DNA of 64,000 nucleotides from Hyphomicrobiales bacterium. GTDB taxonomy: Bacteria; Pseudomonadota; Alphaproteobacteria; Rhizobiales; Rhizobiaceae. Position numbers and translations under genes: made by a program. The DNA is taken from contig UBXV01000007.1 of NCBI GenBank assembly GCA_900469625.1, positions 1 to 64,000 of the forward strand, in the 5' to 3' direction. Of the stretch, positions 8,224 through 11,791 are shown in pieces. The notes below the pieces were generated by a model. That model was not told the origin of the DNA. It did not search any database and worked only from the letters and a program-made list of their open reading frames with translations. Each line of letters starts with the position of its first letter. Position 1 is the stretch's first letter.

Positions 8224-9321
8224 TCAGGCTTCGATCTGGACGTCCCCGAGCGGCCGCGAGCAGCAGGCGAGGATGTAACCCTCATCGATTTCGTCGTCGA
8301 GAATGCCGCCATTGTGGTTCATCTCGACCTCTCCCGCGACCTTCATCACCCGGCACGTGCCGCAGATGCCGCCCTCGCAGGCAGCCCCGATCCGCACACC
8401 ATTGGCGCGCGCCGCCTGCAAGATCGTCTGGCCGGGCTTGGCCTCGATCTCCTTGCCGCTCATGGTGAACACCACCCTGGCGCCCTGGGCCTCGCCGTCT
8501 GATGCTGCTCCTGCCCTGACCGCGATCTCCTCGGCGGCCGGCGCTGCCGCCGGCTGGAAGCTTTCCTCATGGTAGCGGCTCATGTCGAAACCGGCCGCCT
8601 TCAACAGCTCGCGCACGCCACGCATGAACGGCTCCGGACCGCAGCAGAACACTGTGCGCTCCATGAAGTCGGGCGCAAGCAGCGGCAGCTTGGCGCCGTC
8701 GATGCGGCCACGCAGCCCATGCCATCCATGCCGGGCCTCATGTCCCTCGACCACGAAGCCAAGGTTCAGCCCGGACATCTGGCGGGCCAGCACTTCCAGT
8801 TCCGAGCGGAACAGAAGGTCGTCCGGCCGGCGGGCGCAGGAGATGAAGGTGACGTCGGTCTCGGGAATGCAGTCGGCCATCCAGCGCGTCATCGACATCA
8901 TCGGCGTGACGCCGGAGCCCGCCGAGATGAACAGATACTTGTCGCCGGGATGGCGCACGAAGCTGAAGTCGCCGAGCGGTCCGAAAGCCTTCAGCCGCAT
9001 GCCGGGTTTCAGGTGATCGAACATCCAGCGCGTGCCGATGCTGTCGGCCTGTGCCTTGACGGTGACGGCGATCGACAGCGGCCGCGAGGGCGTTGACGAC
9101 AGCGTGTAGGTGCGCATCACCGGCTCGTCGTCCGCCACCGGCAGTTCGAGCGTGACGAACTGGCCGGGCAGATAGCGAAACCATGAAGGCTTCTCGGCGC
9201 GGAACGTAAAGGTCATCACATCGGCGGTCTCGACGACCACCGATGTGCATTCGAGCATGTTCTGCCGGTCGATCCAGACGTGCAGCTCGTCGAAGTGATG
9301 GAAGGAGGATGCCATCTGCAT
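8224..9321 (-). CDS. gbcB: Glycine betaine demethylase reductase subunit (FAD, [2Fe-2S])
   Basis: Electron-transfer partner of the Rieske oxygenase encoded just upstream; passes electrons from NAD(P)H through FAD and a plant-type [2Fe-2S] centre. The 365 residues hold a ferredoxin-reductase FAD domain (RTYTLSS at about 90), an NAD-binding domain (SAGSGVTPMM at about 134) and a C-terminal ferredoxin domain with ligands in CEGGICGTC at about 316-324 and a fourth Cys near 353 (LACCS). The start is ATG 9321, one base after the gbcA stop, or ATG 9315; either way the genes are translationally linked. The layout equals GbcB of Pseudomonas, but similar reductases serve stachydrine or carnitine demethylases, so the name rests on the partner. 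Confidence 0.85.
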   Translation of the reverse strand: MQMASSFHHFDELHVWIDRQNMLECTSVVVETADVMTFTFRAEKPSWFRYLPGQFVTLELPVADDEPVMRTYTLSSTPSRPLSIAVTVKAQADSIGTRWMFDHLKPGMRLKAFGPLGDFSFVRHPGDKYLFISAGSGVTPMMSMTRWMADCIPETDVTFISCARRPDDLLFRSELEVLARQMSGLNLGFVVEGHEARHGWHGLRGRIDGAKLPLLAPDFMERTVFCCGPEPFMRGVRELLKAAGFDMSRYHEESFQPAAAPAAEEIAVRAGAASDGEAQGARVVFTMSGKEIEAKPGQTILQAARANGVRIGAACEGGICGTCRVMKVAGEVEMNHNGGILDDEIDEGYILACCSRPLGDVQIEA

Positions 9322-9322
9322 G

Positions 9323-10567
9323 TCAGGCGACCCTGAAGAGCGGCATGGCGTCGCCCTGCAGGCGCTGTTCCATGAAGTTGCAGTACCACTCGACGAACTG
9401 CATCACGCCGCCTTCATGATCGGGCGAATAGGGCCCCGGCTGATAGGCCGGCGAGCGAATGCCGAAGGCGTTTTCCTCGACGATCTGGCGATCCTGGTCG
9501 TTGGTCTCGGTCCAGACGTGGGTCAATTCTTCCAGATCGTAGTCGACGCCTTCGACCGCGTCCTTGTTGACGAGCCACTTGGTCGTCACCTGCGTCAATT
9601 CAGGCCCGAGCGGCAGGACGCGGAAGGTGATGGCATGGTCGGCGAGCACATGGTTCCATGTCGATGGGTAGTGGAACAGGAGCAGCGTGCCGATATGCTT
9701 CTGGCTGACATCAGCCGACAGTTGCCGACGTACGGCGCGCGCGCCGGACATGGTGTAGCTCTCGGCGTCGTCGATCAACGGCATGCGCGCCGAGCGGAAC
9801 TGGCCGCTCTCGGACATGCGGAACTCGCTTGGCAGCCCCGTCGCCTCGCATTTGGCCCAGTGGGCGGCGATGACAGGATCATCCTTGGCGCCCTGCACGC
9901 CCGTTGCCGACGGGGCCTCCGGATAGGTGCGGCAAAGCTCGGGATGGTTGGCGGCGCAATGGTAGCATTCGCGGTTGTTTTCCCAGACGAGCTTCCAGTT
10001 GCCCTTCTCGATGATCGTGCTTTCGAAGGCGACCTTTGTCTCGCCGAGACGATGCGGCGCCAGATAGGGCGCAACCATGTCGCGGAACGGGCCGAAATCC
10101 ATCGGCTTTTCGGACAGGTTGATGAAGATGTAGCCGCCGACGGTTTCGCAATGGATCGGCTTCAGGCTATGCGCGGCCTTGTCGAAATCCTCGCCCATCT
10201 GACGGGCAAAGAGCAGCGTGCCGTCGAGTTCGTAGGTCCACTGATGATAGGGACAGACGAGCTTGGCGGAAGCCCCCTTGTGTTGCGAGCAGACCCGCGA
10301 GCCGCGATGCCGGCAGGAATTGTGCAGGGCGCGGATCGTGCCCTGCCGGTCGCGCACGATGACGACGGGATAGTCGCCGACCTGGACGGTGAAATAGTTG
10401 CCGGCGCGCGGGATCTCGCAGTCGTGGCCGATGAACAGCCAGTCCTTGTACCAGATGCTTTCGAGATCCTGCCCGTAATAGTCGGGGTCGATGTAGAAGG
10501 CCCGGTCGAGGCTGTAGCCGTCGCGTCGACCCTTCAGCTTGCGGAGCATATCGCCCTTGATGTCCAT
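9323..10567 (-). CDS. gbcA: Rieske-type glycine betaine monooxygenase, oxygenase subunit
   Basis: Catalyses oxidative removal of a methyl group from glycine betaine, giving dimethylglycine and formaldehyde, with GbcB as reductase. The 414-residue product has the Rieske motif CRHRGSRV...CPYHQW at about residues 84-107 and the mononuclear-iron motif ENNRECYHCAANHPEL near 205. It also has the conserved stretches WLFIGHDCEIPRAGNYFTVQ and TKWLVNKDAVEGVDYD, which I recognise from Pseudomonas GbcA. The ATG at 10567 (MDIKGDML) follows GAGGACAGGAC; the same frame runs further upstream into the leader, but that part is RNA structure. The leader carries a cobalamin riboswitch whose terminal hairpin covers this ribosome site. 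Stachydrine demethylases are close relatives, so the substrate is probable rather than certain. Confidence 0.88.
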   Translation of the reverse strand: MDIKGDMLRKLKGRRDGYSLDRAFYIDPDYYGQDLESIWYKDWLFIGHDCEIPRAGNYFTVQVGDYPVVIVRDRQGTIRALHNSCRHRGSRVCSQHKGASAKLVCPYHQWTYELDGTLLFARQMGEDFDKAAHSLKPIHCETVGGYIFINLSEKPMDFGPFRDMVAPYLAPHRLGETKVAFESTIIEKGNWKLVWENNRECYHCAANHPELCRTYPEAPSATGVQGAKDDPVIAAHWAKCEATGLPSEFRMSESGQFRSARMPLIDDAESYTMSGARAVRRQLSADVSQKHIGTLLLFHYPSTWNHVLADHAITFRVLPLGPELTQVTTKWLVNKDAVEGVDYDLEELTHVWTETNDQDRQIVEENAFGIRSPAYQPGPYSPDHEGGVMQFVEWYCNFMEQRLQGDAMPLFRVA

Positions 10568-10605
10568 GTCCTGTCCTCGTTCGCCTTGTTTCGCGGAGGC
10601 AGGAC
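10568..10605 (-). promoter_or_regulatory. Ribosome-site sequestering hairpin of the cobalamin riboswitch
   Basis: On the minus strand GTCCTGCCTC (10605-10596) can pair with GAGGACAGGAC (10578-10568) with a single bulged A. The second arm is the Shine-Dalgarno and touches the gbcA ATG. There is no T-run after it, so it looks like a translational switch and not a terminator. Confidence 0.7.
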
Positions 10606-10688
10606 TGGAACCCGCGCAGGCGCATTGCCTGTGCGATGACGGCTCCGATCCGGCTGCCCGCCGCAACCCGTTACGGTCTGTTCGTGTC

Positions 10689-10855
10689 AAGGCTGGTTTC
10701 CGGGCTCAGGAGCTATCCGCAAGGACCAGCCCGGCGCCTTCCCGGACGGACCCGTCCAGTGGCTTTCTGCCGTGGCTTTCGCTCCACCACCGTTGCGGGG
10801 GCAGCGCCGGGTTTTGACCGGCTTCCCAATTCTCCGCCTTCCCTAAAAGGCGGCA
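10689..10855 (-). ncRNA. Cobalamin (B12) riboswitch, aptamer domain
   Basis: Reading on the minus strand, the hallmark elements come in order: GCTGCCCCCGCAACGGT (10805-10789), GGAGCGAAAGCCAC just after it, GCCACTG (10763-10757), GGGAAGGCG (10743-10735) and the B12 box GAGCCCGGAAACCAGCC (10707-10691). These match the cobalamin riboswitch family. A leader of about 120 bases separates it from the gbcA start and ends in a hairpin that covers the ribosome site. By family rule, adenosylcobalamin or related cobalamin binding lowers expression of the downstream genes. A riboswitch of this class on a betaine demethylase is unusual; cob, btu and metE-type genes are the common targets. Confidence 0.93.
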
Positions 10856-11191
10856 CCTTGAGTAGGCATATCTAATCGCGGAAGCCACCGTCGCAGCTGC
10901 CGGTTAACGACATCAGATTCCTGAAAGACGACACAGTGCATGCTGTGCCATAAACGCCTCGGCATCGATTATTTCCCCTTGCAAACAATCGGTTAGACGA
11001 AATTTTGGGCATCTGTCGCTTTTTCCGGCGATACCGGCGCGAAAGGGCCGTGCCTTCGTCGGTTTGCGACATGCCGTCCCCCACCGTGGTACCAGTTTCC
11101 CGGCCGCGGTCGAAATAGTCTCTTAACCATAATGCATTAGCGTCGCCTGACGGAGAAACCGGCAGAACCGGCAAACAGCGCATTGAAGTTC
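10856..11191. other. Divergent promoter region between gbcA leader and a hypothetical gene
   Basis: This 336-base stretch lies between the riboswitch 5' end and the plus-strand gene at 11192 and must hold the gbcAB promoter. A CtrA-like half-site TTAACCAT is present at 11124-11131. No further gene or stable RNA fold is evident. Confidence 0.45.
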
Positions 11192-11791
11192 ATGGCAAAG
11201 CTCAAATATTACGACGCCGCAGCCGAGAAGCTGCCCACGATCGCCGCGAAGACGGCGGTCCACACCGAATTCCTGCGCACCGGCCGTATCGAACGGCGAC
11301 AGTGGTCGCAACGCGAGCGGCGTTATCTGAGCTATGACGAAGTTGCCAATCGCACCGGCCACAAGCTGACGACCGCCGGCGAAACAACGCACAAGCGGAT
11401 GAACGGCTTCCATACCTCGATCCAGTTTCCCAAGATGATCTTCCACCGCACGCTCGCCGGGCGGCCGCATCTGGGCTACTGCCACGTGACGGCGGCGAGG
11501 ACACATCTCGCCCAATCCAAGGACGTCACCTGGTCTTTCTACTTCGCCAATTTCTTCTGCGACCTCGGCGACGAAAAACACTTCTTCGAACGCATCCAGA
11601 CCGGCTATTCGCGGATGTACTTCGCCGTCGCAATCGAACCCGACGCGCAGGAAGGACAGATGACGATCAACCGCAGCGTCAGCGACAACGGCCTCATCTT
11701 TCGCACCGATGATCCAAAGGTGGCGCTCAAGAACGTGCTGATGCTCGGTGCGCGCGACGAGGCGCTGCGGCGCATCATCCGCAGCCTCTGA
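11192..11791 (+). CDS. Conserved hypothetical protein (possibly DUF6656)
   Basis: A 199-residue soluble protein with no signal peptide or membrane helix. The ATG at 11192 (MAKLKYYDAA) is preferred; a TTG three codons upstream is the only other in-frame option and neither has a strong ribosome site. The sequence is basic with many aromatic residues (SFYFANFFCDLGDEKHFF around 112-130). Codon use matches its neighbours, so it is a real gene. It reminds me of a rhizobial family named DUF6656, but I cannot verify this and give no function. It is followed closely by tsaC on the same strand. Confidence 0.75.
   Translation: MAKLKYYDAAAEKLPTIAAKTAVHTEFLRTGRIERRQWSQRERRYLSYDEVANRTGHKLTTAGETTHKRMNGFHTSIQFPKMIFHRTLAGRPHLGYCHVTAARTHLAQSKDVTWSFYFANFFCDLGDEKHFFERIQTGYSRMYFAVAIEPDAQEGQMTINRSVSDNGLIFRTDDPKVALKNVLMLGARDEALRRIIRSL

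Follow-up and report, generated by a model that had tools for sequence, protein, structure and literature searches.

A cobalamin riboswitch before a gbcAB-type Rieske oxygenase operon: a probable B12-independent stand-in for corrinoid-dependent betaine demethylation

Glycine betaine is an abundant osmolyte of soil, plants, and the sea. The gbcAB genes of Pseudomonas are under the control of GbdR. In Ruegeria pomeroyi, mtgC and mtgD mutants led in 2025 to a cobalamin-dependent system of glycine betaine demethylation, in which MtgB was assigned by proteomics and homology; in Sinorhizobium meliloti, the mtg genes are located with a cobalamin operon (PMC12478193). Isozymes of B12-dependent enzymes form one class of cobalamin regulon genes (PMC3766115), and the logic of switching between a B12-independent and a B12-dependent enzyme was stated for NrdDG and NrdJ (PMC545781). 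A cobalamin riboswitch before S. meliloti SMc00982, a likely dioxygenase gene (PMC2848018), was listed in 2007 (PMC2245857) and in 2008 (PMC2573895), the entries attaching no function to the link. The locus compared here with these systems lies in a window of 64,000 nucleotides (positions 1 to 64,000 of contig UBXV01000007.1, assembly GCA_900469625.1, a Hyphomicrobiales bacterium) and features a cobalamin riboswitch followed by a gbcAB-type operon, both on the minus strand. As a whole, it is best explained—with a probability of about three in four—by the riboswitch making gbcAB the B12-independent stand-in for MtgBCD.

The aptamer (10674..10875, minus strand) matches RF00174 over the full length of the model (1-189; window 10875-10674) in the Rfam search, scoring 113.2 bits where the gathering score is 31.5, with an E-value of 1.4e-27. 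It is the only Rfam match over a gathering score in the 64-kb window. The P4/L5 element is found at 10805-10792 and the B12 box (GAGCCCGGAAACCAGCC) at 10707-10691, and the aptamer lies 106 nt upstream of the oxygenase gene. The leader (10875-10560) folds better than 100 of 100 dinucleotide shuffles, with a z of -4.0. The preliminary description of this DNA, made from the letters alone, had recognized the hallmarks of a cobalamin riboswitch on the minus strand and proposed a covariance-model search, which confirms them. Its count of at most two mismatches in the B12 box agrees with the usual consensus (two departures) but not with the Rfam line (three); its extent of 9323..10855 contains gbcA (9323-10567) but is too short on both sides, since the aptamer begins at 10875 and the operon runs to 8224. 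The riboswitch is real, and it is conserved; both the aptamer as such and this conservation support cobalamin control of a gbcAB-type operon, and B12 would act as a repressor, as judged by the riboswitch family and the expression platform.

The operon consists of a gbcA-like Rieske oxygenase gene (9323..10567, minus strand, ATG at 10567), encoding 414 residues, and a second gene for a gbcB-like ferredoxin-NAD(P)H reductase of 365 residues (8224..9321, minus strand); the latter has a homologue in the flank at 77/80 gbcA loci. GbcA and GbcB are the best curated families for the two subunits. The marker positions of group Va and group Vb oxygenases are the site of CntA Tyr203 and the CxxC by the iron site (PMC7948474, PMC10952381). 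Group Vb—the glycine betaine and stachydrine demethylases—carries an Asn and no aromatic residue where the carnitine/choline group has Tyr203 (PMC7948474). The window protein features this signature as ENNRECYHC, and the Asn motif is present in 77 of the 80 rows of a gbcA tree (window included), whereas a paralogue in the same genome (32% identity) has ENYVECYHC, with Tyr instead of Asn. Among solved structures, the PDB search places 3n0q nearest (538 bits), followed by Stc2 (528 bits). Genomic context was examined in four of 321 plasmid-collection records with a match: an orthologue in Paracoccus versutus (71% identical) has as neighbors a GlxA-type regulator, ETF genes, folD, fdhA, and a BCCT transporter, and one in Agrobacterium (62% identical) adjoins fdhA and glycine betaine ABC genes. 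Judging from these sequence comparisons, the substrate of gbcAB is most likely glycine betaine.

The genome holds nine RF00174 sites at E<=0.001, all above the cut-off. Genes were assigned to sites from the positions of their open reading frames, and ten proteins behind eight of the sites were compared with NCBIfam: metE, the class Ib genes nrdE, nrdF, and nrdH, as well as bluB, cobN, and cbtA score over their cut-offs, and a btuB-like receptor and two ABC binding proteins score below. MetE and NrdHEF are textbook B12-independent isozymes. With both in the regulon, gbcAB keeps the company of such isozymes.

A candidate B12-dependent partner is encoded in the same genome. Three MttB-family genes are present, and all three proteins are nearer to the glycine betaine methyltransferase 9yce (334-414 bits) than to the trimethylamine methyltransferase 7xcl (106-143 bits). 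One of them is close to PDB entry 4yyc (1123 bits), and the gene for a small corrinoid protein, whose best family is MtgC (NF047996), is located approximately 0.3 kb away. The contig with these two genes also carries DUF1638, a MetF-like gene, a RACo/RamA-type activase, and a pterin-binding methyltransferase (MtgD, 399 bits with a cut-off of 259). The genome hence contains a set of the MtgB/C/D type, which would catalyze the same reaction as GbcAB, and with this set and the activase at hand, the riboswitch most likely decides whether betaine loses its first methyl by a B12-dependent or by a B12-independent route. A second match to B12-binding_2, a 1277-residue open frame on contig C67, has the size of MetH and was taken for it. 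Another MttB gene (C50:69628-71121) lies beside an old-yellow-enzyme-type oxidoreductase gene, approximately 59 kb from gbcA (C50:67-71 kb, corresponding to L024 4472-8248); this pair is perhaps a second betaine route.

The riboswitch and the candidate partner co-occur. A named set was formed by the best 80 of at least 584 gbcA loci from one scan, and a two-motif test detects the aptamer at 65/80. Rfam searches of the 14 motif-negative loci with enough leader yielded a weak aptamer (56-61 bits) at four and none at ten; locus L106, with a leader of 41 nt, was left out. Two of the 65 motif-positive loci (L056 and L092) were searched directly with Rfam and are both positive at 108-110 bits, and in the genomes of L071, L099, and L129, Rfam hits fall where the aptamer is expected. 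With a riboswitch called well formed if it is motif-positive or reaches at least 98 bits, an MttB-family gene accompanies 36/36 and 28/28 well-formed riboswitches of the named set, none of the four weak ones, and 5/10 leaders without a riboswitch (L102 being left out of this count). MtgC is found with 36/36 well-formed riboswitches, 0/4 weak ones, and 4/10 riboswitch-less leaders. At E<=0.001, two to five further cobalamin riboswitches persist in each of the five named genomes that have neither a gbcA riboswitch nor MttB, so these genomes have not lost such riboswitches in general.

Two wider samples were added. Of 150 genomes drawn evenly from the order, 65 contain MttB and 34 a gbcA homologue at E<=1e-60. 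Besides the window's own, 29 of these gbcA loci were scanned with Rfam: eight carry the riboswitch, all with MttB (8/8), and 21 do not, with MttB in 3/21. Four distant homologues (G018, G055, G092, and G144; 34-37% identity), whose genomes all have MttB, were left out of the riboswitch scan. A class-wide draw of 240 genomes contributed just four further gbcA homologues outside the own genome, with MttB in 2/2 with and 2/2 without the riboswitch. In total, MttB is present in 75/75 genomes with a well-formed riboswitch (own genome included) and lacking in 23/33 riboswitch-less ones, of which 10/33 have it; the four weak cases were set apart. The Fisher p, uncorrected for kinship, is 5e-16, or 2e-12 with the four weak cases counted as riboswitches; for the named set alone, the values are 2e-5 and 0.001. 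At E<=1e-20, the 80 named gbcA loci have no relatives of the three own MttB genes in their flanks (which extend to 5 kb, or less in some), which leaves no linkage by distance at these loci. One linked case is genome G044, in which riboswitch-gbcAB, a DMGDH-like gene, and an MttB-family gene are physically linked. At L109 (9144-9791), a corrinoid-protein-like stretch, 31% identical to MtgC, lies approximately 3 kb from gbcA as the sole such match among the 80 loci.

Kinship was taken into account on a gbcA tree built by a quick method, with 80 labelled rows and long branches flagged. On this tree the riboswitch changes 9 times and MttB 11 times. Independent pairs give on average 5.7-6.6 concordant and no discordant changes, with a median sign-test p of 0.016-0.031. 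Two sister rows are natural aptamer deletions: in Rhizobium freirei PRF 81 and Rhizobium lusitanum SEMIA 4060, approximately 105 nt of the aptamer core are gone, with the flanks, most of the platform, and gbcA kept and the platform loop L13 changed in both. MtgC is absent from both genomes; R. lusitanum SEMIA 4060 has no MttB, and R. freirei PRF 81 has a lower-scoring MttB gene (587 bits) and a fragment. Five relatives with an intact aptamer (L097, L099, L107, L110, and L116) carry both MttB and MtgC (5/5).

The expression platform lies between the aptamer and gbcA on the minus strand. It starts with the P13 hairpin (10652..10668; GGTTGC-GGCGG-GCAGCC), the loop of which, L13, is complementary to L5 (CTGCCCCCGCAA). 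The sequences thus allow an L5-L13 kissing pair, and the predicted minimum-energy fold also pairs the two. The L13 motif GCGGNGGG occurs in 69/70 riboswitch leaders and in 1/10 riboswitch-less ones, with 0.07 per leader expected from mononucleotide shuffles. A putative anti-sequester helix A would join GGCAgccGGAUcGGAGCC (5' side, 10641..10658) to GGUUCCaGUCCUGCC (3' side, 10598..10612), which overlaps the strand complementary to the Shine-Dalgarno (SD) site. Helix B, the predicted SD-sequestering hairpin (10568..10605), places GTCCTGCCTC (10605-10596) opposite GAGGACAGGAC (10578-10568) at the gbcA ribosome site and stops at the ATG at 10567; the preliminary description had pointed to this hairpin, and it is indeed present in the sequence and in the predicted fold. 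When the 3' side of P13 is scored against the anti-SD strand, helix A is better than shuffled sequences at p<=0.05 in 13/38 non-redundant leaders (mean z -1.34), with a p of 0.235 in the window itself. Masking of P13 lowers SD accessibility in 28/38 leaders (p 0.0009). Among ten riboswitch-less leaders, the SD hairpin reaches p<=0.05 in two, both of which are the deletion leaders. Bound cobalamin would stabilize P13 via the L5-L13 kissing pair and so free GTCCTGCCTC, which would cover the SD site and turn gbcAB off; with no ligand, the competing helix would hold the GTCCTGCCTC strand and leave the ribosome site open.

In the proposed scheme, plentiful cobalamin would shut the operon off via the riboswitch in its leader. 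GbcAB would use O2 and NADH, but no B12, to take a methyl group from glycine betaine, and MtgB, MtgC, and MtgD would remove the same methyl group via a corrinoid cofactor, with tetrahydrofolate as the acceptor. GbcAB would hence stand in for MtgBCD as metE does for metH, with nrdHEF as a further parallel in the same regulon. It is rather likely that one RNA makes the choice between two chemically different routes for a single nutrient—with B12, MtgBCD would conserve the betaine methyl as methyl-tetrahydrofolate; without B12, GbcAB would burn it to formaldehyde with O2.

Several observations weigh against this scheme. The oxygenase reaches 516 of the 670 bits demanded by the GbcA model (NCBIfam NF058607) and is about equally close to the best solved structure and to the stachydrine demethylase Stc2. 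The reductase likewise stays below the GbcB model (NF058606; 391 bits vs 500), so the name glycine betaine demethylase, given to the operon by the preliminary description and likely by family, is not certified by curated models. The GbcA cut-off may be drawn tightly: ten homologues, including the own paralogue, score 256-542 bits, none at 670. The Paracoccus and Agrobacterium orthologues, which have the best betaine context, carry no cobalamin riboswitch, and inspection of the window by eye shows no betaine genes next to gbcAB. On the partner side, the small corrinoid protein scores 213 bits on MtgC, under the cut-off of 370, and the sole NCBIfam match of the three own MttB proteins is a trimethylamine methyltransferase model, below its cut-off (259-300 of 525 bits). 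Ten riboswitch-less gbcA genomes carry MttB (five named, three from the order, two from the class), four of the five named ones also with MtgC, and four genomes keep a weak riboswitch (56-61 bits) without MttB or MtgC. Rhizobium sp. CSW-27 (L118), whose leader is decayed by eye, keeps MttB and MtgC, contrary to a strict rule. Co-occurrence is no proof of a shared substrate, as MttB paralogues differ in substrate. The sign-test p rises up to 0.25 over random pairings in the least favorable setting, and the named set alone offers five changes of each trait, which puts significance out of reach. In the window, the SD hairpin as a duplex is not clearly beyond chance (p 0.085), and it reaches p<=0.05 in 5/38 non-redundant riboswitch leaders (mean z -0.56); masking of P13 shifts mean SD accessibility just from 0.40 to 0.36 and leaves the window at 0.43 and 0.43. 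This hairpin is statistically weak, the masking effect is small, and helix A partly coexists with the SD hairpin in the predicted fold of the window leader; translational control of gbcA is thus no more than plausible.

The weak platform statistics fit a riboswitch that is a relic here or acts by early transcription termination and not by covering the ribosome site, as do decayed aptamers in three leaders (L121 and L125; L118 by eye). Such a reading is unlikely, given that aptamers of approximately 99 bits or more stand before gbcA in other lineages and that the leader fold has its z of -4.0. The closeness to Stc2 (528 bits vs 538 for the best structure) bears on the substrate: with the same switch logic, another betaine, above all proline betaine (stachydrine), would be demethylated, and the partner would be the matching MttB paralogue. 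This is unlikely; the MttB gene at C50:69628-71121 adjoins an old-yellow-enzyme-type gene and proline-betaine-specific relatives of MttB exist (PMC12478193), but genes for glycine betaine transport or formaldehyde dehydrogenase accompany the 71% and 62% identical orthologues, and no curated family scores better than GbcA and GbcB, even if both stay under cut-off.

The nine RF00174 sites, several of which serve cobalamin synthesis, cobalt transport, or uptake, also suggest a Rieske enzyme that belongs to the B12 regulon by acting in corrinoid or lower-ligand metabolism. This is hardly credible in view of the group Vb betaine N-demethylase signature (PMC7948474), the betaine neighbors of the orthologues, and the absence of the gbcA riboswitch from genomes that keep other cobalamin riboswitches. 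In the picture drawn by the preliminary description, high B12 spares betaine as a methyl donor for betaine-homocysteine methyltransferase, the competitor of GbcAB. Betaine does raise B12 output in industrial strains (PMC8123684); however, the S. meliloti 'Bmt' was argued to lack the betaine-binding residues and to be a module (MtgE) of the cobalamin-dependent complex (PMC12478193), and co-occurrence with MttB is not predicted by this picture. It is very unlikely, and the competitor it names is probably wrong on the argument about 'Bmt'/MtgE and with MtgB/C/D and the activase in the genome. Betaine-homocysteine methyltransferase as the partner was accordingly set aside on the argument of PMC12478193, no search of the window's genome for Bmt/MtgE having been made. 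The stand-in role of gbcAB for MtgBCD is thus the best explanation of the locus as a whole.

The S. meliloti locus (L171) features an orthologue 82% identical to the window gene, a 100-bit aptamer, and the same kinds of neighbors as the window; from its layout, the orthologue would be SMc00982. Its record (CP090106.1) of 3.7 Mb is titled plasmid pSymB and is possibly mislabelled; from the SMc locus tags, the locus is presumably chromosomal. The preliminary description had held the link between riboswitch and operon to be undescribed: the riboswitch before SMc00982 was already in print, with no function attached to the link in those listings (PMC2245857, PMC2573895). Where consulted, PMC12478193 names a riboswitch just in a reference on glycine and does not tie MtgBCD to the control of gbcAB. 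No paper joining gbcAB, the riboswitch, and MtgBCD was found in the open-access literature searched, mostly via search listings. Rodionov et al. 2003 (J Biol Chem) reportedly described a B12-regulated alphaproteobacterial pair 'ardX-frdX', which may be gbcAB; among the open-access papers searched for these names, one uses frdX, for another gene. The case is thus likely one of known regulatory logic and a new catabolic pair. It would suggest a function for SMc00982, in print just riboswitch-linked or a likely dioxygenase gene, and could account for a second betaine route suspected in S. meliloti. The switching logic is known mainly from methionine synthases and ribonucleotide reductases, to which a further pair with and without B12, catabolic and under a cobalamin riboswitch, would be added in Hyphomicrobiales and Rhodobacterales. 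B12 status would then set whether betaine methyls feed one-carbon metabolism or get oxidized; in plant symbionts, as in betaine-fed industrial B12 producers, the use of this osmolyte would be coupled to the supply of B12.

Further loci show variants of the arrangement. The divergent neighbor of the operon in the window (11183-11791) is DUF6656 (PF20361, 290 bits), with a homologue in the gbcA flank at 70/80 loci. Plasmid pGal_C110 of Phaeobacter gallaeciensis (L174, 7683-7885) carries gbcAB with a 119-bit cobalamin riboswitch and no MttB, so the arrangement is also plasmid-borne in Rhodobacterales. At L035, two cobalamin riboswitches (813-1017 and 1174-1375; 136 and 111 bits) lie back to back on opposite strands, one of them serving gbcA. 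L027 (1483-2745) has a gbcA orthologue (70%) in a similar neighborhood with no riboswitch and, by eye, no adjoining gbcB; its fragmented genome is without MttB. In a Rhizobium clade (L084, L088, L089, and L095; genomes G160-G163), three cobalamin riboswitches were found in each genome, every one of them weak (39-76 bits), and neither MttB nor MtgC was found; this clade may be losing B12 dependence.

Compared with known systems, the window pair resembles GbcAB of Pseudomonas and Chromohalobacter in being a two-component Rieske system with these as the best curated family for both subunits; unlike them, it stays under the curated cut-offs and, from its leader, appears to be riboswitch-controlled. 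It shares with Stc2 of S. meliloti the group Vb Rieske type and a similar score in the PDB search; S. meliloti has, besides Stc2, the 82% identical orthologue with a riboswitch, and since this is the nearer of the two, Stc2 itself is not orthologous to the window gene. MtgBCD(E) of R. pomeroyi is the presumed B12-dependent counterpart, relatives of its parts being present in the window's genome. Like the metE, nrdDG, and class Ib nrd riboswitches, that of gbcAB features RF00174 in the leader of an operon for whose job the cell seems to have a B12-dependent enzyme. It differs from the metE and nrd cases in that gbcAB is catabolic and O2-dependent and its B12 partner is a three-part methyltransferase, not a single isozyme.

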